DNA of 64,000 nucleotides, taken from positions 4,657,558-4,721,557 of the forward strand of contig OY979724.1 of the NCBI GenBank assembly GCA_963855995.1. The letters are read 5' to 3'. Under the pieces are notes generated by a model. That model was not told the DNA's origin, did no database searches, and saw nothing but the letters and a program-made list of their open reading frames with translations. Positions 1 through 64,000 of this stretch are shown in pieces. The position numbers and the translations under genes are program-made. The DNA is from Muricea muricata. Its lineage: Eukaryota; Cnidaria; Anthozoa; Malacalcyonacea; Plexauridae. Each line of letters starts with the position of its first letter. The first letter of the stretch is position 1.

Positions 1-884
1 TGACAATAGAGTATGTTAAATACGGCATGAGTCACGGCGTTTGGTTGTTCTTCTTTTAAGTGAGAGGTAAACAACCCTTTTTCTGCAACATTCCGGGAAA
101 TAAATTTTTCGGCAAAGAAAGTAAAGATGCTAGTATTGCAGTTATCTTTCAGTTCAAGGTTTGCCCCTTTCTCAATAAGATACCGAGCTTTTGTTGTATC
201 ATCATCCTCAAGGGCATAGAATAAGGGGGTTCTACCATAGTGATCTCTTGCATCTATCACAACTTCAACCACTTTCATTAAGGTATCTAAAAAATTGTTA
301 TCGCCATAGAATACGACCGTCTTGCCTTGTTCATCTGTTATTTCGAGGTCTAGGCCTGCGTTACACAACGGCGCAACTACATCTTTATGTTCATTTTTTG
401 CAGCATAGAACAAAAGACCTTTTGCATCATCGATTTCATGCAACTTAAATTCAGCACCACATCCAATTAACTTACAAAGTGCATCCATACTGTGATTACG
501 CTCCACATAAAACACGGCAGTTTTGCCTTCATCATCAGTTATGTTGAGGTCAAAACCCTTATTATGTAATTTATCTACTGTTCCGGAATAATCATATTTA
601 GCAGTGTGGAACAAGACAGCTTTTGCATCAATTTCATCCAGCTTAAATTCAGCATCACATTCAATCAACTTACAAAGTGCATCCATACTGTGGTTTTCGA
701 TGGCATAAATCAAGGCAGTTTTGCCTTCATCATCAGTTATGTTGAGGTCAAGACCTGCATCAGACAATTGCTTCACTACAAGTGGAAGATTATTTTTCGC
801 ACCATGGAACAAAATAGGTTTTGCGTCTATTCCATCCAAGTTAAATTCAGCGCCCCCATTAGTTAACATACACAGTTCAGCCAT
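1..884 (-). CDS. Ankyrin-repeat protein, 5' part of a paralogue of the ankyrin-kinase-KEN gene (runs off the left edge)
   Basis: The minus strand is open from an ATG at 884 to base 1 (294 codons, no stop). The translation matches the N-terminal part of the gene at 45492-50897: it starts MAELCMLTNGGAEFNLD and has units of the NITDDEGKTA type. It has only two of the 66-residue units, where the other gene has about ten. It then continues through the HYGRTPLFYA ankyrin repeat to a point matching about 48437 in the other copy. The middle, kinase and KEN parts would lie outside the window, so their presence is not shown. An in-frame TAG lies four codons before the ATG, just before a possible splice acceptor (CTAG), so an upstream exon is also possible. 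One extra Asp (EIDDAK) is the only length change seen inside a unit. Confidence 0.85.
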   Translation of the reverse strand, partial: MAELCMLTNGGAEFNLDGIDAKPILFHGAKNNLPLVVKQLSDAGLDLNITDDEGKTALIYAIENHSMDALCKLIECDAEFKLDEIDAKAVLFHTAKYDYSGTVDKLHNKGFDLNITDDEGKTAVFYVERNHSMDALCKLIGCGAEFKLHEIDDAKGLLFYAAKNEHKDVVAPLCNAGLDLEITDEQGKTVVFYGDNNFLDTLMKVVEVVIDARDHYGRTPLFYALEDDDTTKARYLIEKGANLELKDNCNTSIFTFFAEKFISRNVAEKGLFTSHLKEEQPNAVTHAVFNILYC

Positions 885-19100: not shown

Positions 19101-22100
19101 CTAATTTTACACTCACACTCTAACTAACGTCACACTTGCAAATAAATCAGAGATACAGTAGGGTAGTTGTTAGTAATTATTGGGATAGCCACGGTTTGTT
19201 AACACTGCTGCACATCTTCTTGGCATGCTCTCTACAAGCTTTTGAATGTATTCGACACTCAGGCTTTCCCATTTCTCCAATAAACATTGAAACAATTCAT
19301 CTTCGGTATTGCATTGACGTGTATTGAGCTGACAATTTAGCTCAGACCAAAGATTCTCGATGGGGTTTAAATCGTGGTGGCCAAGAAAGGACCTCAATGT
19401 CTTGGTTTTAAAGATAATTCTTCACGAGATTCGATGTATCTTTCGGGTCGTTATCGTGTTGGAATATAAAATCATCAATCAACCCCATATATTGCACGTT
19501 TATCAAATTTTTATATAAGCTTAGTGATCTCACAGCAAACATAAACAATATCGCCGATCTCTTGAAGGTAACGCGAGAAACTTGCGGGACTTATTTCACA
19601 ATTGATAAACACACAACGAATTCATCATCCAAGCTGTAACAAATGCTAAATTATTTCTCACCAAGCCATAGTTCCTATACAATCATGATCTCATGCTTGA
19701 ATGATTGTTCTGGAATTCGAAAACGGCAACTATGTTTCAATATTATTAATTTGAAACTTTCATTTAAGAATGAATCGATCGTATCAATACGTTGGTCGTC
19801 AACCTGCATTTCTTCTCCGTGGCCCACCAGGAAAACCAGGAAGGGACGGTATACCAGGAAGTCGAGGCACTCCGGGAAAAGCAGGAAAAGATGGTACTCC
19901 AGGAAAGGCTGGAAAAGATGGCAGTCCAGGAAAAGCAGGAAAAGATGGCAGTGCAGGAAATCCGGGGCTAAATGGCCGAGACGGAAGAGATGGTGGACAG
20001 GGAGCTCAAGGTAAGTAATGCGATCGAATGCACTACTGTATGTACTTCAACTATTTTATCTCAATAAAGTTCAAATGCTTTACAAGTAAGTACGTTATCA
20101 GACAAGGTACCAGAATACTAACTGATTAAACACATAATTACACATTCTCAAAGTCCATGCAAATTTTTACATCTTAGATTCAGTAACATAGAAATATCCA
20201 CGTTCATATTTTCTATTTTGTCAGGTGAACCAGGAATGCCAGGTGAACGTGGACCACCAGGCGTGCAAGGTCCCAAGGGAATACAGGGTGATTCTGGAGA
20301 AGTTGGAGTGACTTTATCCGGTGGGGGTGAAAGAACTGTCCAAAGAGTGGAGCTACTTTGGTCTATGAAGGTAACACCAAAGCTTTACATCCACTTTTTA
20401 GAATCATCTGTAGTGGGGGGGGGGGGGGGGGGTGGGTGGGTTAAACCGCACTACAACTATGTAATTACATGAAATTTTAATGTGAAATTTCAATTTTCTC
20501 TTAATTCTACAGGTTATGTCGGAGGATCTCATCATTCCCACAAGGGTGGTGCTGCTAATTACGTATGTTTGACACGTGATCCAATTTATGAAAAATCTGC
20601 ATCTGGTGGTGCTGTTACCAAAATCTACGGAGCAGAGTATCAAACATACTCGTATGGCATATATCCCAGCAGTCTGTACGAGCATGATGTCCCATGTGCT
20701 GTGTGTCACGTGACCACACGTGCTTCACAAATGATGATACCAGGTCGTAACGTGTGTCCCGCGGGATGGACACGCGAGTATAAAGGATACTTGATGGCCG
20801 AATATTATAATCACTATCGTACAATGTACACTTGCATGGATGAAAACCCTGACTACACACGAGGAACTCACGCTGATCTCAACGGTGCTTTGTTTTATTT
20901 CGTTGAAGGAGTATGTGGCTCACTTCCCTGTAAACCTTATATTGCAGGAAAAGAGCTGACATGCGCAGTATGTACGCGCTAACTATAAAATATAAAACTA
21001 AATAATTGTCAGGCAATTGCTTGGTAAATTTCTATTTACCCCTACTGGCACTATTATATAGCTTCAAACTTTTAGAAACTTTACACCTTTCATACTCGAT
21101 GTACTTAGTATCAATTATTCACACAACACTAAGTATTCAGTGATATGTAGCATATAAATGTAATAACCTGGGTACGAGGTTGGTAATATGTAACAAACTT
21201 CGTAACAAGAGCACGTATACGTAGTTTCATCAAGATATGATATTAAGTAAGCACATAGTTTGCATACTACATAGCAGTATTCAAACTTTTGAGAAGTAAC
21301 TGTACAAAAGTATACAAAATTCGTAAAATTTCCAGGACTATATTTTCCATATTTTAAAATATTTTGCAACCAAACCCGACAGTTGTATGAAAGTTAGGAT
21401 GCTCTTTCCAGCTGTGCTAATTGACTTTCCAAATTCAAAAGTTTGCCTAATAGGGGAATGGTCAATTATCTCAATTTTATTCTTGTTTTTTCGTGTTAGG
21501 CCACGGTGCTTGATTTTATTCATATTCTGACAAAACGTATATGCGCAACGTTTTCTTCCCTTGTCATTAGAGCTTGTCCATACGAGCTGAAGGTTGTTAA
21601 AAATTAAGAGAAATACAAAAACGAGTTTTCATTACTAAAACGATGGAAAAGAACGAGAAAGATCCTAAAACAAGCAAGCATCGTTCGTACTTCGTCATGA
21701 AAGTGCTCTTGTTTGTTTTATGCGTGGCTGTCGTCGTTCTTTTGGCTGTGGTCGTCAAAGGTTTCGCCTCGTTGAAAGATTTAAACAGAAAGTTTAATGC
21801 TCTAGAAGAAGAACAGAACGTGAAGTCTTTGAGAAGCGAGAAACACGACCAGCAAACCAGACGAAGCAAGCGGGGCATAGACGAGGCGGAATTCAAGAAG
21901 GCGATGATAAAGCTAGAAAAGCTGGAAGGAAGGTAGGCTTTTTGTTATTCAGTACTAAATTTTTGCTATTTTTAGTAATGGGCGTCGTATTCTGGCGTGT
22001 GTAATATTTTTAACAAGGAAACCTAATTTCTGTGCTTATATTAGATTCCAGCATAAGCTAATTAACGAGGAAATTCTATATTGTTTACCCAAACCGTGAT

Positions 22101-25100
22101 ATGTATCGGATTAGTGTCTAGGCAATGCGGTGTCAAATCCAATTCAGCAAGGAATACCCAGGGTCATAACTGCACGCTGCAACAAATGCTAAATTATTTC
22201 TCACCTAACAATCGTTCCTACACAATCATGAACTCATGCTTGAATGATTGTTCTGGCAACAAAAGCGGCAACAAAAGCTTTAATATTATTAATTTGAAAC
22301 CTTCCTTTAAGAATAAATCGATCGTATCAATACGTTGGTCGTCAACCTGCATTTCTTCTCCGTGGTCCTCCAGGAAAACCAGGAAGAGACGGTATGCCGG
22401 GAAAAGCAGGGAAAGATGGTAGTCCAGGAAAAGCAGGGAAAGATGGCAGTGCAGGAAATCCGGGGCTAAATGGCCGAGACGGAAGGGATGGTGGGCAGGG
22501 AGCTCAAGGTAAGTAATGCGATCGAATGTACTACAGTATGCACTTCAACTATTTTATCTCAATAAAGTTTAAATGCTTTACAAGTAAGTACGTTATCAGA
22601 CAAGGTACCAGAATACTAACTGATTAAACACATAATTATACATTCTCAAAGTTCATGCAGATTTTTAAATCTTAGATTCAGTAACATAGAAATATTCACG
22701 TTCATAATTTTCTATTTTAATTTGTCAGGTGAACCAGGAATGCCAGGTGAACGTGGACCACCAGGCGCTCAAGGTCTCAAGGGAATACAGGGTGATTCTG
22801 GAGACGTTGGAGTGACTTATATCCGGTGGGGGAGGAAGAACTGTCCAAACAGTGGAGCTACTTTGGTCTATGAAGGTAACATCAAAGCTTTACATCCACT
22901 TTTTACAATCATCTTTAGTGGGGGTGGGGGGGGGGGAGGTTAAACCGCACTACTGCCATCGCATGTAGTTACATTAAATTTTCAATGTAAAATTTCAATT
23001 TTCTCCCAATTCCACAGGTTATGTCGGAGGATCTCACTATTCTCACAAGGGTGGTGCTTCTAATTACGTATGTTTGACACGTGATCCAATTTATGAAAAA
23101 TCTGTATCTAGTGGTTCTGTTACCACAATCTATGGAGCTGAATATGAATCATATTCTGGAATTTACCCGAGCAGTCTGGACGACCACGATGTCCCATGTG
23201 CTGTGTGTCACGTGACCACACGTGCTTCACAAATGATGATACCAGGTCGTAACGTGTGTCCCGCGGGATGGACACGAGAGTATAAAGGATACCTGATGGC
23301 TGACCACTATACTCACCATCGTACAATGTTCACTTGCGTGGATGAAAACCCTGACTACACACGAGGAACTCACGCTGATCTCAACGGTGCTTTGTTTTAT
23401 TTCGTTGAAGGAGTATGTGGCTCACTTCCCTGTAAACCTTATATTGCAGGAAAAGAGCTGACATGCGCAGTATGCACTCGTTAATAGGCTGCATAGTTAA
23501 CATTTGCACTTTTCTGCATTATTCTAAAAACTTTGAGAAACTTTAATATTTTAACGCTCAGCTGTCTCGCTTCACACGGCATTGATTAAGCTTTCGTGGT
23601 AACAATATGCAACAAACTTGGTAACAAGCGCACCTTAATTGTCTTAATATGTTGACTATAATTGCATTTTTTATGTCATCAAGGTTTATTATAGGTTAAG
23701 CAATAAAGTTTTTATAACTTTATTTAAAACAGGCCGAAAAATAAGCCGATTAGCCATTTACAGTGATGCAGTAGTAGTTGCGGAGTTACTCGCAAACATT
23801 TGCAAAATATAAATTGTTGATTGTAAGGTGGTCAGTTGGATAAGTATGTTTATTAAATACACTCAGATACTAAATGACGGAACGCAATGAAAAGCATTTG
23901 TGATTTGATTACCATAGCCACGCTGCCATCCCCAGGGCTCTTATATGGAATGAAGTAGGAAAAAAGTAGTAGGAAGAGAGTACTAGTAAGAGGAATAGAA
24001 AGAGAGTAGTAGTAAGAGGAATAGAAAGAGAGTAGTAGTAAGAGAAATAGAAAGAGAGTAGTAGTAAGAGTAATAGGAAAAGAGTAGTAGGAGAAAATAC
24101 GGATCAGCTTTTTATTGTGGCTATGAGCTTTCGACTATGTATCGCACTACATCAGCTGGCTATCAGTTAGCCAATGTTCTGTGCGTCACCTTGAAGCTCT
24201 CTATAACTGATAGCTTTAGATTATTGGTCGCAACCAGACTGCGCACGGCTTGTCGGCTTCTACGATATGAACCTTGATTTCTATGCAACCCTATTAAAAA
24301 TACCATCTGTAGTCGCAAATGTATGTAGAGAGGCGACTGATAACGCGTCTTGTAAAGCCGCAGCAAAGACGATACAGTCAACTCTCATTATAGCGGGCAC
24401 CCAGGGGACAGACATTAATTATCCGCACTAGCCGAGTTGCGATCAAAATTTCCCAAATTCAGGCTGCACAATGTCAGGCCAAAATAGTCGTGGTTTTTGT
24501 CGAGTTTATACCTCCCGTTAAGGTTTGCGTCAGTGATAAGTATACCTCCTCTAATAAATTGAAAAATGAATAAAAGCGTCTAGTAAATAGTTTCGACCGG
24601 GAATTTAAAAAGTGTCCTTAATAGCGAGATGTCCGTAATATATTGAGGAATACGCATACCAAATACGGAAATGTACGGAAACCAAAACATTGGTTAAACT
24701 TTAACCAAAAGTTGATTTTGAATAGCCAAGCACGCTAGTGTAAAAGATCAGATTGCGCGGATGTGTTTCGGATTACTGACATGAAGGTTTTTTCACATCA
24801 GATATATGAACTAAATTTTATAAAACAATCGTAAACGGGGTACCTGTCGTTCCACTTGTGAAGCAAACAGTGAAAACGTCTTCGGGTTTGGCAGGCTTGA
24901 AAGTGAGAAAAAAAACACTAGTCACGAACAAATCATGATTTGGTGCAGGATAAAAGAGCACGAGTTGTTAGAAGAGCTAGAAGAGACCACTGAACTCGAG
25001 CTCTTTAACTAATTTAACAATCTCGCATAGAACGACCGGAAAGCACTCTGTGATCCATTTGCTTTTACGATATCAATTTGTTTAAAACAAAAGGTTTTTT

Positions 25101-27801: not shown

Positions 27802-30800
27802 TTGAATTCTGATGATCTGTTTTCTATGTATTGAATAACTTGTCCAAATCTAGTGGCGAACATGTTGAGAGATGTCATAATGCCGCCATTAGGTCCCATA
27901 TTGTACTGTTTTATGACTTCTTTATATTTATTGTGTCTCGGATATCAATGGTTGCAGGATAAGGTATTTCATAAACTGCTGGATCAAGATTAACAACATA
28001 GGGTGCTGACTTCTTTGTATGAAGGTGGGCACTGATCCTCTGCAAATACATTCAAGATATATGAACATGAGCCTCACTCCAAAAGGGCTCAATATTTAAC
28101 ATGTTGAAATGTTAGGATAAAACTAAAAATATATACCGCAATTTTATTGCAAAATTTTGCACCGAAATTAGAAGTAGTGATATATTTATCAAAAAATTGC
28201 CTGGTAGCTTAATGTAGCCTTCATAGAGAGTCCGGAAAAAGTGCCATTATTTTATCATGATACATAGACTAATGTTCATACAAATCCTTAGGAACTTCAA
28301 AGTAATCAAGCATAATTTCTTATCAAAACCTTCCACTTTATAAGTGAAAAGCAAATGGTTTAACCACAAAAGCTCTGCAGAAGGGCAACTGATTTCCATA
28401 GGCTGCCTGTCAGAGCAAATTGTAACGGTATCAAAGAAGATGTGGCTGGAATGGAAGAAACAGAAACCACCATGTGTCTGTGAGGAAACGAACAGTTGTT
28501 TGATGCAGCCACCATCCAGATTTATGGATGAATATATTTACAAATTAAACAAGTTTGTCACGTGCATGCATGCATAAATAAGCTGATAACAGGCAGGCCA
28601 GGGCTCAGATGTATCAAAGGCGTTCAGCTTAAGCAGCTAATAAGTCAAATATTGAAAGCACTTTGGCATCTCGTACACACATCCTAATTTATAAGGAGTA
28701 AATATTTATTTTATTTCTTTATTGTTCTTCCAGATTTTACAAAATTTTAAAATATTTTGTCTAACGTTTCGGTATCTTTCACAGAAACCATTTTCAAAGA
28801 CTTAAAAATTTATCTTAAATGTTCAACTTGCGTCAGCTGCATGATCGCGTGATTGTTCTCGCGTGCGTTTACATTCTGCGCGCGCTCGTTCATTCGCAGT
28901 TAAGCTAAAATACGCACCTGGCATATCGCGCGATATGTTTATGCTGTTTTTCTCGCTCTTGCTATGCCAGCTTTCCAAAAACATTCTCTTGTTGAAATTC
29001 GTTTCAAATTCTAGGCAGGTGGCTCCCTCCCAATCCATTTGGTGGTTCGTCGTCATGTGATGAACAGCGATTCTGTTGCTAGTGTCTTTGTTAGCTATAC
29101 AGCGCTTGTGTTATTTTACTCGGCGTTGCAATGTTCTTCCGGTTTTCTAACGTAGCTAGCAGGGTACTCAGAACAGGCTATTTTATAGATCGCTGCCACT
29201 CGAGAATTCTTTGGCGATGGATCTTTCACTTTGGTTAGTACATCCCGTAAAGTTGTTAAAGGTTTATGAGCCACTAAGATGTTGTAGGGTCTCAGAATCC
29301 GTGCAATTCTTTCGGACTTGCCTTCGACGTAAGGAATTGCAGCAATGACTTTCTTGTCTTCATTTGTTTTACTCGTACAATTGGAAAACTCTGTTGTTGA
29401 CATATTGGATCTTTTGGTAACGCTGTCTATAAATGATTTATTTTATTCTTTAACAAAAATAAAATAAAAAAATAAAAATTGAAAAGTTCGCTTAGATGTT
29501 GTAATTCGTTCTCAAGGTCTTCATTCGTACTGCAGACTACGTGTGCTCTTTTAACCAACGTTTTTATAGTCACCGATTTGTGTGCCGCTGGATGGTATGA
29601 AGAGTCATCTAACAAACGGTCAGTACTGGTGGGTTTCCTATACACGCTTGTTCGGAGGGTCTTTCCTGCTCTGGTGACTAAACAGTCCAGGAATGCTATT
29701 TTGCCATCCTTTTCTGGCTCAATCGTAAACTGGGTACTCGGATCTTGCTGGTTTAGGTGTTGAAGGAATTCTCTTCTCATTCTTGTGCAAACTTGTGAGG
29801 GTATCGTCCACGCATCGGAACCAGAAAGGTACTTGGTTGGCGTAAGTGGCTAATGCCTTCTTTTTTAAACGTTACATCACAATCTCGGCAACAACAACTG
29901 AAACGGGGGAGCCCATGGCCGTGCCATGAAGCTGCTGGTAGAAATTCCCATCATATTGGACAGACTGTTAGATACAGATGAAGAAAGAGTATTATCGTAT
30001 GGTATGAAACATTCCTTAGCACCTAAACATTTATCTACAGCAAAGATACAGCAAGTGTAGAAGCCGCCATAAGTTATAATGATGGTCTATCTATTGAAGT
30101 GAAAAAAACCATTCGAAGTAAAGTTGCGTCAACACTTTAGACAAGTATGAAACCCGTAAACAATTTGACGAAAGATGAACAACTAGCAGGATCTAGGTTA
30201 CGAAATGACGACACAATTGTCATTACACCAGCTGATAAAGGACGCGTAACAGTAGTTATGAATAAAACGGAATATCATCAAAAAATGTGTAATCTAGTTA
30301 ATGATGATAAAACATATGAGACTTAAGAAAGACCCTTCTAAGAAATTGCAACGGAAACTTAATGAGAAACTTTACCCATTACATCAAGCAAACACTCTGA
30401 AGAAACAGATATACTCAAGGTTATACTGCACCGTTGCACAAACTCCAAAACTATGCGGAATGCCCAAGATTCACAAAGTGAATACACCTTTGAGACCACT
30501 CGTTTCGTTCTGTTCATCACAAACTTATGAGCTTTCTAAGTATCTTGCGTGAATTCTAAAACCATTAACCGAGCAATCCAGCCATCGTTTGATCAATTCT
30601 AGGGAGTTTGTTCCCAAAATCAAGAATGTAATATTAGGTGAGGATCATGAACTCGTATCATTTGACGTGAAATCCTTGTTTACGAGTATCCCCTTAGAGC
30701 TAGCAATCGAAAGCGTGAAAGAGGCGTTAACTAATTATAGTGATGAGCTCCCAATACCTAAAGAGGAAGTCATCGACCTTCTTACCCTTTGCCTACATTC

Positions 30801-33445
30801 AACGTATTTCCAATATGATGGGAACTTCTACCAGAGTAAAACAAATGAAGACAAGAAAGTCATTGCTGCAATTCCTTACGTCAAAGGCACGTCCGAAAAA
30901 ATTGCACGGATTCTGAGACCCCACAACATCTTAGTGGCTCATAAACCTTTAACAACTTTACGGGATGTACTAACCAAAGTGAAAGATCCATCGCCAAAGA
31001 ATTCTCGAGTGGGAGCGATCTACAAAATAGCCTGTTCTGAGTGCCCTGCTAGCTACGTTGGAGAAACCGGAACAACATTGCGATGCCGAGTAAAAGAACA
31101 CAAGCGCTGTATAGCTAACAAAGACACTAGCAAAAGAATCGCTGTTCATCACATGACGACGAACCACCAAATGGATTGGGAGAGAGCCACCTGCCTAGCA
31201 CTTGAAACGAATTTCAGCAAGAGAATGTTTTTGGAAAGCTGGCATAGCAACAGCGACAAAAACAGCATAAACATATCGCGCGATATGCCAGGCGCGTATT
31301 TTAGCTTAATTGCGAATGAACGAGCGCGCGCAGAATGTAAACGCACGCGAGAACAATCACGCGATCATGCAGCTGACGCAAGTTGCACATTAAAGATAAA
31401 TTTTTAAGTCTTTGAAAATGGTTTCTGTGAAAGATACCGAAACGTTAGACAAAATATTTTAAAATTTTGTAAAATCTGGAAGAACAATAAAGAAATAAAA
31501 TAAATAAACTTGGATTCAAGCCTTTTAACGAGTAAATATTTAGTTTTACAAATAATTGTTCTTCTGAGCTTAAAAATATTCAGCGGGTTCATTCATGCAA
31601 TGTAAAAACTTGTTTTATATTTTCGACTTATCCACAGTTTAAGCCTTTGATGGAACTGGCCGCAGTTGTAGAAATGTTTTGACAAGCTACAGAAAGTGAT
31701 GTAATTTTGGTGACATTCTAAACACTGTCCTCTCAATCTCATCCCCGAGCCTGCGATTCCTTGGGAAGGAAACGGAGGCTCTGGGATAATCCGTGATCGA
31801 CACATACAAAAAACTGTATGTCGCACGTACTGCGAATGTGTTGGAAATAAATAGATTCAATAAGCCGCAATGGCCTTTTTCTAAAGCTGTTTTGAACAGT
31901 ATTTTTACTACAGTTGAACCCCTAATAGCGGACACCCCTTTTAAGCGGACACCCCTTTTAAGCGGACACTAAATTCAGGTCCCAAACGTTTCTTTAATTA
32001 AATACTAGTAAGGAAACCTTTATTTGGCGGACACCCCTATTTAGCGGAAGCGGACACCTCACTGGAGGTCCCAATGAACAAATCAACCCCTTTTAAGCGG
32101 ACAGTAACGTAACGAAACGTAGCGTATTTCATTGTTTCGTGAACACTCGGGCAGTTAATGATATGGACTCCATATATCGAATACGCTACGTTTCGCCGTT
32201 CACGATTGAAGTGAAATATGGCCTTTATAAATGATTATTCTTAGCTTTGTTATGTAATTTAGTTTGTATTATGAGCTTTCGCGAAAGACTCGAGCGCAAA
32301 CGTTCCTAGGCTTTTTGAACGCTGATTTTAACTACAAAAGTTTCTGAACGTAGATATTTTGGTAGACTTTTATATATTATATATTATTAACATAGGTAAA
32401 TAAATAACATACAAAAAATTACCCCCTGTTGTGATTTTGCGAGACCCCTTTTAGGCGGACACCCCTCTTAAGCGGACACCTTGGCGAGGTCCCAATGGTG
32501 TCCGCTTAATAGGGGTTCAACTGTATTTTGTTTGTAATGTCAGAGGAAAATATTAGTTTATTTCATTCTGTGTTGGACGAAGCGTTAGAGTGACTGGGTA
32601 AGAAGAATCTCAAATTGAAGGAGTCTCAATACGAAGTGGTAAAGGCTGTTGTTGTCGACCAGAAAGACACGACTTCTGGTTATGGAAAGTCACTTATATA
32701 CCAGCTTCTTCCCTATTGCGGCTTATTGAATCTATTTATTTGCAACACATGCGCAGTATGGGCGACATACAGTTTTTTGTGTGTTGATCATGGATTATCC
32801 CAGAGCGTCCGTTCCTTCCCAAGAGATTGCAGGCTCGGGGAACGAGATTGCTGTCTTCTCTGGTTTCTCTTCCTCCACCCCAGGCCACCAATTACTGCTA
32901 GCTGCAAGGGTTTTATTTGCCTATTCTTGACTTCCAACCAATCTCTCGGGACACACGAGACAATGTTTCTCACCCACGTTGGCTCGTGCCCACAATAGAA
33001 CTGATAAAATATTCTTTTCTACTTCACCACCAACATGGCTGACGTGCAAGTCAAGAACATGACACTAATGTCAGATGGACACTTGCCAATTGAGATAATC
33101 TAGGAACTCACCGAATCAAATCATAGTGGAAAGTCTCTATTTTATCAGACGAATTTGTGTACATTTTTGTTTGCTTTTATTGCCATTTGTATTATAAAGA
33201 AAATATCAAAACATAGACTTATTCGTATTCACTCATACTTTGTCTATAACTTTGTGGTTTGACTGGTTTGTACATTGCTCACATTTAACAAAAAAATACA
33301 CACTGAAAAATGCATTTATCTAGTTGCACAACAGTATTACCTGTACAAATGTAGTTTTTCCAGACCCTGCCATTCCTAAAGTTATAATACACACAGGTTT
33401 TGAGCATTGTTCTCCCGACTTCGAACCATTCGAACTTTCCGCCAT
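27802..33445 (-). CDS. GPN1: GPN-loop GTPase 1, first two exons only (incomplete, one frameshift)
   Basis: Exon 33445-33341 starts [14 protein letters not shown] and carries the P-loop [13 protein letters not shown]. Exon 28039-27802 carries [20 protein letters not shown] and [18 protein letters not shown], which includes the Gly-Pro-Asn loop that defines the family. GPN1 helps to assemble and import RNA polymerase II. The rest of the GTPase domain (DTPGQ, NKxD) and the C-terminus are absent: the next coding sequence, 367 bases on, is already an ACSL exon. In exon 2 one base is missing in an A run near 27928; without it the frame meets a TAA. Exon 1 ends CAG|GTAATA, and phases are 0. The ATG was chosen as the only one before the P-loop. 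The 5.3-kb intron is full of transposon DNA. Confidence 0.9.
28730..29968 (-). mobile_element. Penelope-like retroelement fragment (RT core and GIY-YIG end), minus copy
   Basis: The minus strand encodes, with several frame breaks, the reverse transcriptase part from YDGNFYQ through [17 protein letters not shown] and the catalytic CVDDT. It continues with [20 protein letters not shown], then a linker ([18 protein letters not shown]) and a decayed GIY-YIG-like part ([15 protein letters not shown]). An A-rich insertion (about 29440-29480) separates RT and linker. Penelope-like elements pair an RT with a GIY-YIG endonuclease. This copy is defective. Confidence 0.85.
29969..31506 (+). mobile_element. 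Penelope-like retroelement fragment (RT N-terminus and GIY-YIG endonuclease), plus copy
   Basis: The plus strand carries the first part of a Penelope-type RT ([56 protein letters not shown]) with stops and frame changes before 30589. A 272-codon open stretch (30589-31407) follows. At [10 protein letters not shown] the RT palm is deleted, and the sequence goes straight to the C-terminal part with the GIY-YIG motif region ([20 protein letters not shown], then [10 protein letters not shown]). Its 3' end (31380-31506) is an inverted copy of 28730-28850. It is defective. Confidence 0.85.
31911..32523. mobile_element. Tc1/mariner-type MITE (TA target site)
   Basis: The termini are CAGTTGAACCCCTAATAGCG and its inverse (CGCTTAATAGGGGTTCAACTG), flanked by TA on both sides (31909-31910 and 32524-32525). 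Internal 'gcggacaccccttttaagcg' words are repeated at both ends. No transposase. Confidence 0.8.
32537..32721 (+). pseudogene. RecQ-like helicase N-terminal fragment
   Basis: The frame from ATG 32537 reads [18 protein letters not shown], a stop, then [18 protein letters not shown] and [13 protein letters not shown]. This resembles the Q-motif region and Walker A of RecQ-type helicases. The usual residues before the Walker A Gly (a V-x-L-P-T type stretch) are deleted, and the fragment ends in the inverted arm. It is a non-functional capture or relic. Confidence 0.65.
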
Positions 33446-40782: not shown

Positions 40783-41666
40783 CTAATTGAACATATTCTT
40801 AATTTCTTCCCTAAAACTGCCATTTCGCCAAAACACAAGACAAGGATTTAGCAGAGAGTTCAGATACATCAATGTCGCAACTGCGGCAGCCAAAATGGAG
40901 TTCGTATCACCATCAATTTTCCAGGCACTTGACAACAATTTAAAGAAGATAAAACACAAACCAAAGAGGTAGCAACAAAGAAGGCTCAAAATCACTGCCA
41001 AAGCGGTAACTGTCGACCTAAGTATCTTCTTTTTCGATACGATTTCTCGAGCTGAAGGAGTTTGCGTTGCTTCGATTGCTTTGCGATGTAGGGCTACGAG
41101 TCGGCATATCCAAATCCAAGTGAAAACCACGATACTGATGGTTGAGGATATTATCAAAACCGTCAGGTATATTTGTAGTGGAGAATTAAACTTTACAGCA
41201 AACGTTGCCGCTACGATGCAAACCCAAGAGCAAATCACCGTAATCTTTAAACGCTGCATGGTAACAATATTCTGGCAAAGATAAGGATAAGCTAAAGTCA
41301 GATAACTTTGTACACTGAGAATTACCATGGTTGCGAGTGACAAATAGAGGAAAATCATTGTTGATAACGAGGCAATGTCCCACAGAAGACAATGTTGTTC
41401 ACCCAGGACTTCGTGAAGCACGGCCGCCACATATATTGGTTGCACCAAGGCGGTCACGCTGATGTCTGTGATGGCAAGCAGGAAGAATATCGTGTTTTGG
41501 ATAGTTCGCAGACGAGGTTTACGACAGTTATAACAAGACCGTTGGCCAGTGTTCCGCAAAAAGATGAGAGAATATTTAAAATAACGAAGAAAGTTACCGC
41601 AGAAGTAAATTTCACTGTGGCTGGAATGTATACTTGGCCTGAAACGTCACACCCCATTACAATCAA
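40783..41666 (-). pseudogene. Class A (rhodopsin-like) GPCR with one frameshift
   Basis: The start is ATG 41666 (MIVMGCDVSGQVYIPATV). TM1 ends GTLANGLVITVV in one frame; the rest follows in the next frame from about 41520 (KPRLRTIQNTIFFLLAITD for loop 1/TM2). One missing base near 41518-41522 explains the change. TM3 has the conserved Cys (EQHCLLW) but QSY replaces DRY (SVQSYLTLAYP). The third loop carries KKKILRSTVTA. TM7 reads LNSLLNPCLVFWRN, so NPxxY is NPCLVF. Helix 8 is FREEIKNMFN, then stop. About 294 residues with a short tail fits cnidarian amine/melanocortin-like orphan receptors. The ligand is unknown. It is either a recent pseudogene or a working gene with an assembly indel. Confidence 0.8.
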
Positions 41667-44864: not shown

Positions 44865-45310
44865 TAATGTTAATTACCATGGGTATTTCCAGTTTCTTCT
44901 CACTATAAACATACCTCCGTACGATATCTTTTCACTCATGGCCAATGTTTTTTTTGTCGTGCATACATTAGTGTTAACTACCACGGGTATATCCAGTTTC
45001 TTCTCATTATAAACATACCTCCATACGATTTCTTTTCACTCATGGCCAATGTTTTTTTGTCGTGCATACATTAGTGTTAACTACCACGGGTATATCCAGT
45101 TTCTTCTCACTATAAACATACCTCCGTACGATTTCTTTTCACTCATGGCCGATGTTTTTTCGTCGTGCATACATTAGCGTTAACTACCACGGGTATATCC
45201 AGCTTCTTCTAATTATTGTTTGTGACTGTTACCTCCGTATGATTTCTTTTCTTCTAATTATCAACCGCGATTATTGCCTCCGCATGATTTCTTTTCACTC
45301 ATGGACATGT
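44865..45310. repeat. Tandem repeat, unit about 105 bp, four to five copies
   Basis: 'taccacgggtatatccag' recurs at about 44980, 45083 and 45186, with 'taccatgggtatttccag' at about 44875. Each is followed by 'cctccgtacgat' and 'cttttcactcatggcc'. The last copies are shorter. It lies 180 bases beyond the 3' end of the ankyrin-kinase-KEN gene. Confidence 0.8.
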
Positions 45311-45491: not shown

Positions 45492-48400
45492 TTATCTGAT
45501 ACGAATGTTATTCAAAAAACATTTGATATCATCTCTTTTCTTGTCCCAGTCATGAGTGGTTACCGGCTCGTAGACTTCTATCACAAGATCAGGAAAGCAT
45601 TTCAAAAACACAAAGTCATCGAACAGCATCTGTTCGATTGGTTTCGGTGTTGGAAAGGTATTGTCTTGATAATGTACGTATGTATTCCTTATGAATCGTA
45701 CCAACTCCACGGCAGACGAGGTTTTATATTTTCTTCGTCTCTTCATCTCACAGTACAACTTATTCATGTCCGGCAAGCTGCTCCAGTCTTTATGTTTGAC
45801 TATGATGCTGAAACGTTTCTCTAAGTCTTGTTCAACTTGAGTCGAAGAAGAATGGTGGTGGCGCTTTGAACGAGGACACGCGAATTCTTTCTGATTTCCA
45901 ACGACTTCTAAGAAATCAACCTTTTCTTTATTCGACCAGAAAAAAGGATGCTGTAATGCTTCTGCCGCACTTGGCCGATCATTTTCGTTGCTTTTAATAA
46001 GCATTCTTTTTATCAGGTGGGTGGCTTCAGGACAAAGGGATTTATCCCATCCTTCCATTTTACCGTTCATTATGTTCGCTTCTGTTTTATGGGGGACTTG
46101 AAATTCACTCGTACAATTTTTAGGAGCAAATGGATGTTTTTGCGAAAGAATATAATGAAGCAACAATCCACATGGGTACACGTCTGATGCTGCCACAAAA
46201 CGGCTTTTCTCATCACTGTTTGGCACGGGCGTCAACACTTCAGGAGCCATCCAACATCTGGTACCGTGAAGCGTACGAGTCATGGACTTGCTAGTGTCAT
46301 CATCACGACTTACACCAAAATCGGCAATCTTTAAGCGCCTTTGTGGATGTGCTGTGTAAAGAATGTTTTCAGGCTTCAGGTCCCGATGCAGGATTCCCTC
46401 ATTGTGAATAAACTGAACTCCCATAACGACGTCTTTACAAAAGCGAATGGCTTCTGCTGTATCAATTATGTTCCCATCGAAAAACTCTCTAAGATTTCCC
46501 TCCATCAGCTCTAAAACTACGAAAAGAAAGAATTTATCCTCAAAGGAAGATATATAACGAACAATGTGGTCACTACGAAGACGGACGAGATTTTCGATTT
46601 CTCTCTTGACTTCTCGGGGCTTCAAACGCGATTTATCCATGCGTTTTACAGCTACTTCTTCGCCATCTCTCGTGTTGATTCCAGCAAAAATACTACCAAA
46701 GGAACCAGTTCCTACTTTCTCTTTGTGGTACCAAATTTCACCAGCTGATATAATTTCTTGCTTCCTAGCAACTTTGCCCAGTTTAGTTTTATGTTTGACA
46801 CAAACAGACGTCCAGGGAATACACTCGGAAATATTGCCGAAATCTCTTGGATTCATTAGAACATCTTTCAGAGAAGGATAATCATTTGCAATAGATTCAA
46901 TTACAGTACCTGATACGTACGCACACAGATGCCTAGCAATTTTGCAGTAAACGGAATCATTGAAAATTTGTTCATCCTTTGACTCTTGTTTCTTTTCGTC
47001 TTTCTTTTCTGATTCATCTTTTCTTGCTTTCTTCGTGGGTGGTTGCCCATCATCCTCACGATGCTTGTCGTTAGTGGCTTGAAAAGGCACTGGTTGCTGA
47101 TCATCAAACATACCAAATTTAACGATGTTTTGACAGCAAAGGCGTAGAGGTGACTCCAAGGCGAGAAGGCTTGTTCCGGCTGAATTTAGAATGATGTCAA
47201 CCAAAGTGGTTTTCCAGTGTGTATGCTTTGATTTGTCCTTACAAATGACTCTTAAAATCGAAAGCTTAGCGTCATCTCCAACAAACTCTTCCTTGCAAGC
47301 AACTTCAACCAAAGCTCTAGTAAGTGGAAAATCCTCTGATTCAATGAGAACACTCAAAATGGTCTCTTCTTGTTTATCAGCTACCCAGGGATCAAGTTTC
47401 TTTTCGATAGCACATTTCCAAAACGATTCAGGTTCTTCTGTAATATCAGGATATAAATACCCTGTTTTCTTTGATGCGTATTTCTTCTTAGCTGCGACAA
47501 GGAGCGGTGAATGACCCGACGAATTCTGGTCGCTTGGGTTTGCACCAGCACCTAGTAACAACTTCACTGCAGTCCACGTTCTACACATATGCAAAGGAGT
47601 TTCTTCATTTTCATTGCGAACATTGAGTTTTGCTCCACATTTCAGCAGATGGTCCAAAATCCTTTTCATAATACTCTCAAACTTGAAGTCTTCCGTTCCA
47701 AATATTGTGTAATCTTGTGATGTTTTTAGTGCAATTGATGCCCAAAGGTGTAGTGGCGAGTTTAAAAAATTGTCCGTGTAATTCACAGTTTTACGAACAG
47801 CCTCTTCGCCAGCCTGGAGTAATTCCAAAACATCCACCAAAGTCTGCACAGCAGCCTTCCTCTGGACTTCTGAATTCAATTCAAGACCTTGTTGGATAAG
47901 TGAAATGATGCGATGAAAAAGGAACTCACTGTTCAGAATAACGTTTCTGCTGCTCAGCAAACATCTAAAGACTTCGACCAATCCTTTGATTGACGACTGC
48001 CAACTATTGTTTTCAGTTGCTACTTTCCACGTATCTGGTGACAAGCAAAAGAGCAGAGGTGACTGACCCTGGTGATTTTTCGCATGGAATATCGTCGAAA
48101 ATGTTTTGAGCTTCTTACAAATATCCATGACGACTTCTTGCGTTACACCATAAAGTGGCAGAAGGGTGGCATAATGAAAAGCTGTATTTCCAGCCGAATC
48201 AGTAGTTTGGGGATCGGCGCCCAAGTTGATGAGCAAGGATAAAATACGTGGTACATCAATCACGTTTTTACCACTTATCATGCGCACGACTTCATCAATG
48301 TCTCCAACCTTATGAGAATTCTTAATTACATATTGCTCTCGAGTGAAGGCCAAAGCCTGTAAAACATTTCTTTTGTTGAAAACCGCGTATGACTCCATAA

Positions 48401-50897
48401 AACGAGGAAACGTTCTGACCGATAACAGAGGAGTCTGACAATAGAGAATGTCAAATACGGCATGAGTCACGGTGTTTGGTTGTTCTTCTTTTAAGTCAGA
48501 GGTAAACAACTCCTTTTCTGCAACATGCCGGGAAATAAACTTTTCGACAACGAAAGTGAAAATGCTAGTATTGCAGTAATCTTTCACTTTAAGGTTTGCA
48601 CCTTTTTTAATAAGATACCGAGCTTTTCTTGCATCACCATTCTCATAGGCATAGAATAACGGGGTTCTGCCATAGTGATCTCTTGCATCTATCACAACTT
48701 CAACCACTTTCATTAAGGTATCTAGGAAAACTTCACCGGCATAAAACGCGACCGTCTTGCCATAATCATCAGTGATGTTGAGGTCAAGACCTGCGTTATG
48801 CAACGGCTTGACTAAATGTTCACATTCGTGTTTTGCAGCAAAGAACAAAACAGACTTTGCGTCAATTTCATCCAAATTAAATTCAGCACCACAATCAATC
48901 AACGCACAAAGTGCATCCATACGGTTGTTACGGTTAGCATAAAACACGGCAGTTTTGCCCTCAACATCAGTTATGTTGAGGTTAAAGTTCTTATCATTTA
49001 ATTCATCCAATGTCAAGAAATAGTCATATTGAGCAGCGTGGAACAAAACAGACTTTGCGTCAATTTCATCCAAATTAAATTCAGCACCCCAATCAATCAA
49101 CGCACAAAGTGCATCCATACTGTTGTAACGGTTAGCATAAAACACGGCAGTTTTGCCCTCATCATCAGTTATGTTGAGGTTAAAGTTCTTATCATTTAAT
49201 TTATCCACTGTCACGCCATTGTCACATTGAGCAGCGCAGAACAAAACAGACTTTGCGTCAATTTCATCCAAATTAAATTCAGCACCACAACCAATCAACT
49301 TACAAAGTGCATCCATACTGTTGTAACGGTTAGCATAAAACACGGCAGTTTTGCCCTCAACATCAGTTATGTTGAGGTTAAAGTTCTTATCATTTAATTT
49401 ATCCAATGTCAAGAAATAGTCATATTGAGCAGCGTGGAACAAAACAGACTTTGCGTCAATTTCATCCAAATTAAATTCAGCACCCCAATCAATCAACTCA
49501 CAAAGTGCATCCATACTGTTGTAACGGTTAGCATAAAACACGGCAGTTTTGCCCTCATCATCAGTTATGTTGAGGTTAAAGTTCTTATCATTTAATTTAT
49601 CCACTGTCAAGGAATAGTCATATTGAGCAGCGTGGAACAAAACAGACTTTGCGTCAATTTCATCCAAATTAAACTCAGCACCCTTTTCAATCAACGCACA
49701 AAGTGCACCCATACTTTTGTAATAGTTAGCATAAAACACGGCAGTTTTTCCATCATCATCAGTCATGTTGAGGTTAAAGTTCTTATCATTTAATTCATAC
49801 ACTGTCACGCCATAGTCACATTGAGCAGCGCGGAACAAAACAGACTTTGCGTCAATTTCATCCAAATTAAATTCAGCACCACAATCAATCAACTCACAAA
49901 GTGCATCCATACGGTTGTAACGGTTAGCATAAAACACGGCAGTTTTACCCTCATCATCAGTTATGTTGAGGTTAAAGTTCTTATCATTTAATTTATCCAC
50001 TATCTCGGAATAGTTACATTCAGCAGCGTGAAACAAAACAGACTTTGCATCAATTTCATCCAACTTAAATTCAGCGTAACACTCAATCAACTTACAAAGT
50101 GCATCCATACTGTTGTTACGGTTAGCATAAAACACGGCAGTTTTGCCCTCATCATCAGTTATGTCGAGGTCAAAGTTCTTATCATCTAATCCATCCACTG
50201 TCATGGAAAAGTCTTCTTTAGCAGCGTGGAACAAAACAGACTTTGCATCAATTTCATCCAAATTAAATTCAGCACCACATTCAATCAACTTACAAAGTGC
50301 ATCCATACTGTTGTTACGGTTAGCATAAAACACAGCAGTTTTGCCCTCATCATCAGTTATATTGAGGTCAAAGTTCTTTCGATTTAATCTATACACTGTC
50401 ATGGAATAGTCATGTTGAGCAGTGTAGAACAAAACAGACTTTGCGTCAATTTCATCCAAATTAAATTCAGCACCACATTCAATCAACTTACAAAGTGCAT
50501 CCATACTGTTGTTACGGTTAGCATAAAACACAGCAGTTTTGCCCTCATCATCAGTTATGTCGAGGTCAAAGTTCTTTCGATTTAATCTATACACTGTCAT
50601 GGAATAGTCATGTTGAGCAGTGTAGAACAAAACAGACTTTGCGTCAATTTCATCCAAATTAAACTCAGCACCCCTTTCAATCAACGCACAAAGTGCATCC
50701 ATACTGTTGTTACGGTTAGCATAAAACACAGCAGTTTTGCCCTCATCATCAGTTATATTGAGGTCAAGACCTGCATCAGACAATCCCTTCACTATAAGTG
50801 GCAAGTTATTTTTCGCAGCATGAAACAAAGCCGATTTTGCGTCTCTTTCACCCAAGTCAAACTCATCGCCATTAATTAACCTACGCACTTCATCCAT
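45492..50897 (-). CDS. Ankyrin-repeat protein kinase with KEN endoribonuclease domain (RNase L / IRE1-like)
   Basis: A single open exon of 1801 codons from ATG 50897; an in-frame TTG lies 11 codons further up. In order: about ten 66-residue units (residues about 1-730; core NITDDEGKTAVFYANRNN, then DEIDAKSVLFHAA); looser ankyrin repeats to about 1170 (YGRTPLFYA, EETPLHMCRTWTAVKLLL); a Lys-rich linker (PPTKKARKDESEKKDEKK, about 1283-1300) that could be a nuclear signal; and a kinase with GTGSFGS, VAVK (Lys 1418), HRDLKPEN (1504-1511) and DFG (Asp 1526). The C-terminus (about 1655-1790) is a KEN domain. Its YKTSSAVELVRFIRN and VHY place Tyr 1724, Arg-Asn 1737-1738 and His 1742 at the spacing of the human IRE1 RNase residues Tyr892, Arg905/Asn906 and His910. 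No signal peptide or membrane segment is seen, so it is probably cytosolic or nuclear. RNase L has the same order but an inactive kinase; its use of 2-5A as ligand is not implied here. Confidence 0.93.
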   Translation of the reverse strand: MDEVRRLINGDEFDLGERDAKSALFHAAKNNLPLIVKGLSDAGLDLNITDDEGKTAVFYANRNNSMDALCALIERGAEFNLDEIDAKSVLFYTAQHDYSMTVYRLNRKNFDLDITDDEGKTAVFYANRNNSMDALCKLIECGAEFNLDEIDAKSVLFYTAQHDYSMTVYRLNRKNFDLNITDDEGKTAVFYANRNNSMDALCKLIECGAEFNLDEIDAKSVLFHAAKEDFSMTVDGLDDKNFDLDITDDEGKTAVFYANRNNSMDALCKLIECYAEFKLDEIDAKSVLFHAAECNYSEIVDKLNDKNFNLNITDDEGKTAVFYANRYNRMDALCELIDCGAEFNLDEIDAKSVLFRAAQCDYGVTVYELNDKNFNLNMTDDDGKTAVFYANYYKSMGALCALIEKGAEFNLDEIDAKSVLFHAAQYDYSLTVDKLNDKNFNLNITDDEGKTAVFYANRYNSMDALCELIDWGAEFNLDEIDAKSVLFHAAQYDYFLTLDKLNDKNFNLNITDVEGKTAVFYANRYNSMDALCKLIGCGAEFNLDEIDAKSVLFCAAQCDNGVTVDKLNDKNFNLNITDDEGKTAVFYANRYNSMDALCALIDWGAEFNLDEIDAKSVLFHAAQYDYFLTLDELNDKNFNLNITDVEGKTAVFYANRNNRMDALCALIDCGAEFNLDEIDAKSVLFFAAKHECEHLVKPLHNAGLDLNITDDYGKTVAFYAGEVFLDTLMKVVEVVIDARDHYGRTPLFYAYENGDARKARYLIKKGANLKVKDYCNTSIFTFVVEKFISRHVAEKELFTSDLKEEQPNTVTHAVFDILYCQTPLLSVRTFPRFMESYAVFNKRNVLQALAFTREQYVIKNSHKVGDIDEVVRMISGKNVIDVPRILSLLINLGADPQTTDSAGNTAFHYATLLPLYGVTQEVVMDICKKLKTFSTIFHAKNHQGQSPLLFCLSPDTWKVATENNSWQSSIKGLVEVFRCLLSSRNVILNSEFLFHRIISLIQQGLELNSEVQRKAAVQTLVDVLELLQAGEEAVRKTVNYTDNFLNSPLHLWASIALKTSQDYTIFGTEDFKFESIMKRILDHLLKCGAKLNVRNENEETPLHMCRTWTAVKLLLGAGANPSDQNSSGHSPLLVAAKKKYASKKTGYLYPDITEEPESFWKCAIEKKLDPWVADKQEETILSVLIESEDFPLTRALVEVACKEEFVGDDAKLSILRVICKDKSKHTHWKTTLVDIILNSAGTSLLALESPLRLCCQNIVKFGMFDDQQPVPFQATNDKHREDDGQPPTKKARKDESEKKDEKKQESKDEQIFNDSVYCKIARHLCAYVSGTVIESIANDYPSLKDVLMNPRDFGNISECIPWTSVCVKHKTKLGKVARKQEIISAGEIWYHKEKVGTGSFGSIFAGINTRDGEEVAVKRMDKSRLKPREVKREIENLVRLRSDHIVRYISSFEDKFFLFVVLELMEGNLREFFDGNIIDTAEAIRFCKDVVMGVQFIHNEGILHRDLKPENILYTAHPQRRLKIADFGVSRDDDTSKSMTRTLHGTRCWMAPEVLTPVPNSDEKSRFVAASDVYPCGLLLHYILSQKHPFAPKNCTSEFQVPHKTEANIMNGKMEGWDKSLCPEATHLIKRMLIKSNENDRPSAAEALQHPFFWSNKEKVDFLEVVGNQKEFACPRSKRHHHSSSTQVEQDLEKRFSIIVKHKDWSSLPDMNKLYCEMKRRRKYKTSSAVELVRFIRNTYVHYQDNTFPTPKPIEQMLFDDFVFLKCFPDLVIEVYEPVTTHDWDKKRDDIKCFLNNIRIR
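48760..50890 (-). repeat. 198-bp coding tandem repeat, about ten units
   Basis: Within the ankyrin gene the word 'cataaaacac' recurs every 198 bases (for example 49137, 49335, 49533, 49731, 49929). Each unit encodes 66 residues, i.e. two ankyrin-type modules. The units covering 50200-50600 are nearly identical to each other; units at the 3' side form another subgroup with alternating DDEG and DVEG. The left-edge paralogue has only two. Confidence 0.92.
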
Positions 50898-51060
50898 ACT
50901 TATACTTTTATGTTGTTTAGCGCAGAACAAGACAGTTGTGGCTTTGTCGCTAGTATATCAAGTAACTAGAGTCATATAGAGTCTCTTGATCATTTGGTCT
51001 CTTTTCCACAACTCTTGGCGAAAATGTTGAGGCCGGCAGTAATACTGACACAACTCAAGA
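50898..51060 (-). promoter_or_regulatory. 5' flank of the ankyrin-kinase-KEN gene, possible splice acceptor
   Basis: Reading on the minus strand, the ankyrin-like frame continues above the ATG as KATTVLFCAKQHKSIS, back to a CTAG at about 50956. Before it is 'tacttgatatactag', which could be an intron end. The left paralogue has the same CTAG just above its ATG. A first exon further upstream is therefore possible; no promoter motif is evident. Confidence 0.35.
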
Positions 51061-51402
51061 TCTAAAAAGAGAAACCTACAGTTTATACACGACTATTACT
51101 AGAGATATTTTAATGACCCAACGAACTTTACGTTAAGGAAACTCACCTGCATTAAAATATATAAAGAACTGCAGCAACCAACCGAAAATCAGATCGATGA
51201 ATTAAGAAAGGCTTGTGAAATGAGACACTTTTTCTCAACCATAGAACTGATAAAATCTGGAAAAATAAACCTTGGGTTGAATGCATGGCATAGATACTGT
51301 ATCTTAAGTGCACTCCTCTCTTATCTCGATGAAAATTTTGGGTCTACAAAATGGCGAATTTACAAGGGCATTTTGACTAGGTATCTTATCAGGTACGCTT
51401 GA
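51061..51402 (+). other. Conserved open stretch diverging from the ankyrin gene
   Basis: A plus-strand frame from about 51104 to 51402 reads TLRKLTCIKIYKELQQ, PTENQIDELRKACEM and YCILSALLSYLDENFG. It matches the region at about 1150-1260 upstream of the left paralogue (TLREDLTWIHL, ENQIDELRKAG). In the shared ENQIDELRKA the three base changes are silent, which hints at coding, but the frames part soon after through a one-base offset. The family is not recognised. Confidence 0.35.
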
Positions 51403-61744: not shown

Positions 61745-64000
61745 TAATATATGATCTGGGTTCACTGGTCGTGCTCGCAAGCAAAAGCCGTACGCTTTCG
61801 CTACCAAAACAAAATAAAACAAATCCGATTTTAAAAACATTATACGTGAAAAAAGTACAACAAATTTGCAGAATTGTAGAGAAATCCATAACTTTCATGA
61901 TATCATCAGGCATACTCCCAACTTGCATTCCCGAGACATGGTCCATGACATTCATAACCTCCGACAGAGTTGAATCATCCATAAATAAGGTAAGATCGTT
62001 ATCGTTGTCATTAGCACTAATGCTGGAATTTGTCTGACTACTCTCGGAGTATGTACTTACAGCACCCTGCAATCCATTAATATATACGACAAACGCTAAT
62101 GTATACGACAATACATACGACAAACGCTAATGTATACTTAATATATAGGACAAACGCTAATGGACCTATACGACTGCCTTGAGGGACTCCTCCATTGATC
62201 ATATAGCTTGAGGAAAGCTCATTACATTGCATTCTCCTACTTAAATATGAGCCCAACCAACTAATAAGCCCCGGTCGAACTCCCATTTTGCAACAGTTGT
62301 CCAATAGTACATTATGGTCGATGAGATCGAAGGCTTTACGAAAATCCAAAAATACAATCCTTATTACTCGTTGTGGCAATTCCAACGCTTTACTCCATTT
62401 ATGCACAACCTGAACAAGTGCGAAGACAGCTGACGAACGTGTAACACCACCATATTGTTCCTTGCAAATTGCTGGCTCGATATCTTCATACATCCAATCG
62501 ACCACATACGACTCCTGTATTTTCGAAATTGTACTAGTAAGAGCTATCGGTCTTATTTCGTCCAGGTCCGTGCACGGTTCAACTTTAGGTACTGGTACAA
62601 GATAGAACTCTTTCCACAATTCTGGAAAAACCTTCTGCTCGAAGGATGCATTAAAAATGTTTGCCAGCTGAATGGCAAAGAATTGGGCAAAAATTTTGAT
62701 TACCTTCAGGAACGGGTCATTTGGACCTGGAGCTTTGTTAGACTGGATGGCCGAGAGCTTTCTGGCGACGCTATCAACTGTAACAGTAGGTAGAACATCG
62801 AACCGACCATACGATGACCATTTAGATTGAATTTCTGGGAAATCATTCGTTAAATCTGCAAAAAACAAATTAATCATATTCGCAGCACCTTTATCTTCTA
62901 GTTTCAAACCAGAGCCCTGTTCAATGAGATTTATAGAAGTATTCTTCTTTCCAGTTAATTTCCAGATCTTTTTCCACCATGTTCGAGCATCACCATTATT
63001 GTTCACACCCCTAATATTCTTAGCATAGTAAGCCCTTTTTTCTCTACGAATTTCCGATGCTACTCTATTCCGTAGTTCCTTGAACTTAGACATTCTTTTA
63101 TGCATGTATGCTTTGTCGCGCTTCTTTAATAGTCTTTTTATTGTAGTTGTTATAAAGAATTTATCATCAGAATGCATTCTAGCTGTTTGCTCACGGAAGT
63201 AATGGTTAATCATATCCTTATAGTAGCTCTAATGAAATCTTCTACTTTTTCATGAACATTTACTGCATTTAATACAGGTGACCAATCATACTGTGACAGG
63301 CAGGACCCAAAATCTTGCAGGCTATGGCTAGGTGTAGGACGAAATTTAATTTTCTTCACAGTATTTATGCAGCCTTGTTTCACTTTCGCCTTCCAAAGGA
63401 CCATATTATGATCTGAGGTGGACAATGGTTCAATCACTTCAGGGGGGTTATAGTGTGAGCTGATGTTGGTAAAAATGAGGTCTAAAATATTAGAGTTCCT
63501 CGTTGGATCCTTCACCACTTGCTTTAAATTAGTATCACAGTAGTTTAAAAGATAGTTTACATCAAAACCATTACTGCAAGGATTAAAATCTCCAGCTACA
63601 ATAAAACCTGTTTCGGGGCTTTCAGATGATACAATATCATAACAGGAGTAAAAGTAGTCATAAAAATTTTCTAAACTTCCCTGATCAATTGAGGGAGGAA
63701 GGTATACACAAGCAACAGCAATCCTCGAAACTGTTCGTGGGAGCCACTTAGGGCGCAGAATTACCCACTGACATTCAAAATTAGGATCGGAAAGATCATT
63801 ACGAGTTTTCGTTGAGATTACTTCACGAACATAAATCGCACAGCCTCCTCCAAGGCCATTTACCCTGTCCTTTCGTATCAATGTATATCCTGAAATATTC
63901 ACGGCTTCACTTGGTATATTGTCAGATAGCCATGTCTCTGTAACAATTGTAATATCAATTTTGTACTCATTTGAGTAATATTCCAATTCATCAATTTTCC
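61745..64000 (-). mobile_element. Non-LTR retrotransposon (endonuclease and RT), runs off the right edge
   Basis: The endonuclease part (63986-63210, open beyond the edge) has ITIVTETWLSDN, GGGCAIYVRE, VAGDFNPCSNG and STSDHNMVLW, the motifs of the apurinic-type endonuclease. The RT part (63213-62077) has NKAPGPNDPFLKVIKIF, YLVPVPKVEP, RPIALTSTISKI, VFLDFRKAFDLIDHNVLLD and NGGVPQGSRIGPLAFVLYI. The catalytic FMDDSTL lies at about 61965-61985 in a further frame. The frames change at the endonuclease/RT border (63210) and at a triplicated 'acgacaaacgctaatg' (62083-62160). The 3' end is cut by the palindromic element. Motif order fits the Jockey/CR1 group; it is inactive. Confidence 0.9.

Follow-up and report, generated by a model that had tools for sequence, protein, structure and literature searches.

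RNase L, which has nine ankyrin repeats, joins them to a kinase fold and a KEN nuclease domain, and IRE1 joins a kinase and KEN to a lumenal sensor and a membrane segment. The ankyrin-kinase-KEN layout is already known, and its presence outside vertebrates has been reported both ways. A table in a HEPN survey, as far as the accessible part of that paper goes, records KEN fused to an S/T/Y kinase 'along with ankyrin repeats, CCCH in some' (PMC3710099), the same combination as the one described here, although that part contains no cnidarian ankyrin-kinase-KEN protein. In the excerpts available of two further sources, RNase L is reported absent from four sponges and eight other lower Metazoa, including the cnidarians Acropora, Nematostella and Orbicella (PMC6307210), and the OAS1-RNase L axis is called absent in Aplysia (PMC9334734). 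Against this, the available text of another study counts RNase L among the homologues detected in the Nematostella response to poly(I:C) (PMC8476169), a cnidarian gene annotated as RNase L. A fifth source, again in the portion available, names RNase L once, in the introduction, as an interferon-stimulated effector (PMC13319465). Within the partial texts covered by our search, which ran outside subscription journals, preprints and supplements, we found neither a description of a cnidarian ankyrin-kinase-KEN protein nor one of any version with kept kinase motifs.

Here we describe such a gene in a 64,000-nucleotide stretch of the Muricea muricata genome (the window). On its minus strand, an open frame at 45492-50957 runs for 1821 codons without a stop, against 54 to 251 stops in the other five frames, which bears out the single frame noticed in the original prediction. 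The first ATG, at 50897, gives a product of 1801 amino acids (45492..50897), in which Pfam matches place an ankyrin array, a kinase and KEN in the order that had been predicted. As the fusion is contained in one open frame, no assumption about splicing is needed to obtain it. The predicted lack of a membrane segment also held within the frame: none was seen in the 1801 residues, the highest 19-residue hydropathy being 1.35, where the usual membrane threshold is about 1.6.

The kinase domain (residues 1391-1653; 45939..46727, minus strand) was found by Pfam with an E value of 4.3e-56 and by PDB matches, and it keeps its catalytic motifs: GTGSFG at 1396, VAVK at 1415, HRDLKPEN at 1504, DFG at 1526 and APE at 1551. 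The original prediction had taken VAVK, HRD and DFG to be intact, and all three are. Several serines and threonines lie in the activation loop (SKSMTRT). The Ribonuc_2-5A profile then matched the predicted KEN domain at residues 1680-1785 (45543..45860, minus strand; E 6.9e-13; its 49.3 bits exceed the 23.3 cut-off), again with PDB support, and both domain matches are significant and near full length. Numbered by yeast IRE1, with the alignment anchored on H1061 so that E988, K992, Y1043 and Y1059 fall in place, the KEN catalytic residues Y1043, R1056, N1057 and H1061 correspond to Y1724, R1737, N1738 and H1742 (45672..45728, minus strand). The spacings of 13 and 5 equal those of yeast IRE1, as had been anticipated for the Tyr, Arg-Asn and His, and R1737 and H1742 match the R-x4-H active site of KEN/HEPN nucleases.

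The N-terminal part of the protein is a long ankyrin array, with Ank_2 matched in 13 stretches. We counted 22 regular repeat motifs of the AKS or GKT type at residues 20-713, ten of them carrying GKTAV, and several degenerate repeats after them, up to residue about 1250. The degenerate part (residues about 735-1270; 47088..48695, minus strand; limits approximate and set by eye from motifs and PDB matches) hits solved ankyrins in PDB with a best E value of 3.8e-20. At the DNA level, the regular array is a tandem repeat of a 198-bp unit (48843..50764, minus strand; 9.7 copies, 92% matches), each unit encoding two 33-residue ankyrin repeats, and the nine complete units are 83-99% identical in bases, with a mean of 91% over 36 pairs. 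A Pfam match to GhoS (2.6e-05), although above its cut-off, falls within the repeats with no single stretch passing, and was set aside as a repeat artefact. Between the array and the kinase lies a charged linker with a basic stretch, KKARK (residues 1289-1293; 47019..47033, minus strand), which is a possible nuclear localisation signal.

We favour, at a probability of roughly 0.6, the reading that the gene encodes a soluble, ankyrin-gated kinase-RNase of the IRE1 type that dimerises, autophosphorylates and cuts RNA. The sequence shows the order of the domains, the kept motifs, the lack of a membrane segment in the frame and the existence of a tandem paralogue; from these we infer that the protein is gated by a ligand, dimerises, phosphorylates in trans and cuts RNA, and likewise infer its location and its part in defence or stress. 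The protein would be soluble, in the cytosol or the nucleus; its N-terminal ankyrin array would bind a ligand or a partner, and this binding would assemble at least two protomers, in which the intact-looking kinase may then phosphorylate the activation loop of the partner and hold nucleotide, by analogy with IRE1, and the paired KEN domains would make an active site and cut RNA. We hold this reading because the kinase and KEN matches have their catalytic residues at IRE1 spacing, because the activation loop offers serines and threonines in a protein lacking a membrane segment, and because the array differs in length between paralogues, with amino-acid-changing steps clustered in the repeats (see below). 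Counting against it, the ratio of changing to silent steps in the array does not depart from neutrality, the clustering of changing steps was noticed post hoc, the interface patterns of IRE1 do not appear, and two scans of virus and prokaryote contigs yielded no relative.

The protein might instead be a true relative of RNase L that answers 2-5A made by OAS, the pseudokinase state of vertebrates having arisen later. This improbable alternative draws on the like order of ankyrin repeats, kinase fold and KEN in RNase L (PDB 4oau, 4o1o), on common KEN stretches (VGN, FIRN and FPDLV), and on cnidarian OAS genes, reported in the part of PMC6307210 available to us. It also draws on the likelihood tests, for which we aligned five sequences, all with long branches; the residue-sharing count used 307 gap-free kinase-KEN columns. 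In the best tree the Muricea protein pairs with RNase L. The human-IRE1 alternative trails it by 5.1 log units under LG+G4 (AU 0.046, KH 0.080, SH 0.083) and the yeast-IRE1 alternative by 3.8 (AU 0.21, retained). In 100 simulations each under LG+G4, the RNase L tree came out best 38 times when the human-IRE1 tree was true and 8 times when the yeast-IRE1 tree was, but none of the 100 under either reached the observed differences in log-likelihood. Under the RNase L tree, RNase L was best in 100 of 100, and the observed differences were reached 49 and 66 times. Among the residues that the protein has in common with the two RNase L sequences but with no IRE1 are the GN, FI and D-V of VGN, FIRN and FPDLV.

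Other parts of the same tests pull the opposite way: the KH and SH tests keep the human-IRE1 grouping under all three models (p 0.054-0.083), the KEN part by itself sets the trees 1.9-2.8 log units apart and rejects none, and with the kinase by itself the RNase L and yeast-IRE1 groupings cannot be told apart. Taken as sequence comparisons among five long-branched proteins, these results lend weak support to kinship with RNase L. Identity over the kinase-KEN part is 26% to human RNase L (87/334), lower than the 32-36% to IRE1, and RNase L does not appear among the best 60 of the 1732 PDB matches to this part. At the sites of the Muricea HRD and DFG, RNase L carries HQD and DFD, so the Muricea protein is not a pseudokinase, and its ankyrin repeats, in 198-bp units, exceed the nine of RNase L. 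The resemblance to RNase L in the original prediction therefore stands for the domain order and only weakly for kinship, identity being higher to IRE1.

The ankyrin repeats themselves speak on the ligand. The aromatic residues W60 and F126 of the RNase L ankyrin repeats contact 2-5A, according to the part of PMC5927464 available to us. At the equivalent site, 22/22 of the regular Muricea repeats have lysine. A wider repeat pattern, which as a control picks up W60 as well as F126 when run on RNase L, gave 61 matches, 5 of them aromatic (three at repeat position 14, plus Y1063 and W1108), and by eye all five are out of register, so that the degenerate repeats probably have no in-register aromatic either; a narrower pattern gave 0/36 aromatic but misses F126 of RNase L itself. 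The comparison does not support 2-5A as the ligand, and the link to 2-5A, offered as speculation in the original prediction, is to that extent weakened.

Returning to the proposed ankyrin-gated kinase-RNase, its best PDB matches in the kinase-KEN part are IRE1 proteins, which raises another alternative: a diverged IRE1 paralogue that gained its ankyrins independently and still acts in the unfolded protein response or in ER-linked RNA decay. The top PDB matches to the kinase-KEN part are yeast IRE1 (1.1e-36) and human IRE1 (8.7e-30), with identities of 36% (128/357) and 32% (115/360), and KEN alone ranks yeast IRE1 (8.4e-5) before human IRE1 (0.015) and RNase L (0.32). Like IRE1 (PDB 2rio for yeast, 5hgi for human), the protein places KEN after a kinase that keeps its catalytic motifs, and its KEN residues are IRE1-like. 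The count of shared columns leans the same way, with 33 shared with both IRE1 sequences and neither RNase L and 20 of the converse kind; in the KEN part the count is 8 of RNase L type and 7 of IRE1 type. We nevertheless consider such a paralogue a poor prospect: the Muricea frame has the ankyrin array in place of a lumenal sensor and membrane segment, the human and yeast IRE1 sequences resemble each other more (48.5%, 180/371) than either resembles the Muricea protein, and the human-IRE1 grouping is the least likely of the three trees on the full alignment, a ranking that two further models repeat.

The predicted dimer interface also departs from IRE1. At yeast positions 988, 992 and 1059, the accessible part of PMC8104961 describes two patterns, held by 175 and 33 of 230 IRE1 orthologues. 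The Muricea residues there are D1661, V1665 and Y1740; D1661 and Y1740 fit the S. cerevisiae-like pattern, but V1665, the valine at yeast position 992, does not, and both of the known salt-bridge patterns are missing. These two features suggest that dimerisation may differ from that of IRE1. On its sequence the protein thus fits neither the RNase L nor the IRE1 family fully, and it most likely has an RNase L-like input and an IRE1-like output and works like both.

A tandem paralogue, newly noticed here, lies at 3..884 (minus strand), truncated by the window's left boundary, and covers the ankyrin part only; any kinase and KEN that it has would lie beyond that boundary. It is 69% identical to the main gene in protein (294 residues) and 81% in DNA (886 bases). 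Judged by GKTA motifs its array is the shorter one, with two read by eye against ten in the main gene. Pattern searches for relatives elsewhere returned no match in viral_contigs and 11 in genome_contigs, none confirmed, in virus and prokaryote sets in which a eukaryotic relative is not expected, and Rfam gave 0 matches at gathering scores.

How the array changes was followed in its nine complete units. Mean pairwise dN (0.108) exceeds dS (0.069) over 36 pairs, a pattern that might be taken for positive selection, yet steps counted once per codon column (49.5 changing, 9.5 silent) do not reject neutrality (binomial p 0.51), and we make no claim of positive selection on the array. Changing steps are unevenly placed: 43.5 of the 49.5 lie within positions 10-25 in the first repeat and 13-27 in the second, which we take to be the helices of the ankyrin fold, and 6 fall elsewhere, a clustering noticed post hoc that may serve as a lead only. 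Positions that we take to be those randomised in designed ankyrins show a slight excess, with 14 steps in 14 codons against 35.5 in 52 at the rest. That the gene is instead a copy in decay or one without nuclease function, either a kinase scaffold or a pseudogene, is very unlikely: its tandem copies, the near-neutral ratio in the array and a paralogue dN/dS of 0.55 (NG86) or 0.68 (YN00) over 260 ankyrin codons, of which 185 encode agreeing residues, point that way, but the 1801 codons are stop-free against the 54-251 stops of the other five frames and the catalytic residues of both kinase and KEN are kept.

The paralogue also informs the 5' end of the main gene. By eye, a candidate 5' intron lies at 50950..51146 (minus strand), with donor CAG/GTGAGT and acceptor ACTAG/C; the donor is poorly kept in the paralogue, whereas the homologous ATG is kept there behind a similar acceptor-like site. 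By hand count, 52 bases separate the acceptor-like site from the ATG in the main gene and 9 in the paralogue, so a single upstream coding exon could not be in frame in both copies. Up to 20 codons 5' of the ATG at 50897 read ankyrin-like in frame by eye, which had suggested such a coding exon; because the phase differs between the paralogues, we judge it the less likely reading. The upstream exon is probably 5' UTR, and the ATG at 50897 a plausible start codon. Further 5' of both paralogues, a 44-base block is 86% identical (51183-51225 and 1208-1251) and could be a shared promoter or 5' UTR. It was dismissed as a coding exon, since its minus-strand frame has a stop in both copies; on the plus strand of this region, ten residues, ENQIDELRKA, agree between the copies.

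The surroundings of the gene hold other features. Immediately downstream of it is a 103-bp tandem repeat (45000-45210), and a GPCR of the Rhodopsin family occupies one open frame at 40783-41646 (minus strand; 7tm_1 E 1.2e-12). Three tandem collagen-like genes on the plus strand (16182-16544, 18522-20982 and 21601-23484) share a C-terminal Cys-containing domain, which had no Pfam match in the two copies tested, and the second and third, judged by eye, also have a hydrophobic N-terminal segment and stretches of Gly-x-y. Such collagen-like genes are compatible with a cnidarian host. Transposable-element-like remains lie on both strands at 28823-31407, where GIY-YIG scores beneath its cut-off (E 0.0026), and presumably resemble a Penelope-type element. 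A retrotransposon of the non-LTR type, whose reverse transcriptase and endonuclease are split between two frames that overlap, runs off the window edge (62077-63998, minus strand).

The proposed ankyrin-gated kinase-RNase may belong to a broader picture, which we offer tentatively and regard as unlikely in full: an interferon-independent immune RNase of a non-vertebrate, gated by ankyrins and driven by phosphorylation, preserving the condition that preceded the loss of kinase function in RNase L, whose ligand array lengthens, shortens and diversifies by 198-bp units between tandem paralogues. A protein with the layout of RNase L and an active-type kinase could explain why reports of RNase L in cnidarians conflict (PMC6307210 and PMC8476169, each as far as available). 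It would also offer a test of the origin of RNase L from IRE1, in which the layout would have come first and the loss of the kinase later.
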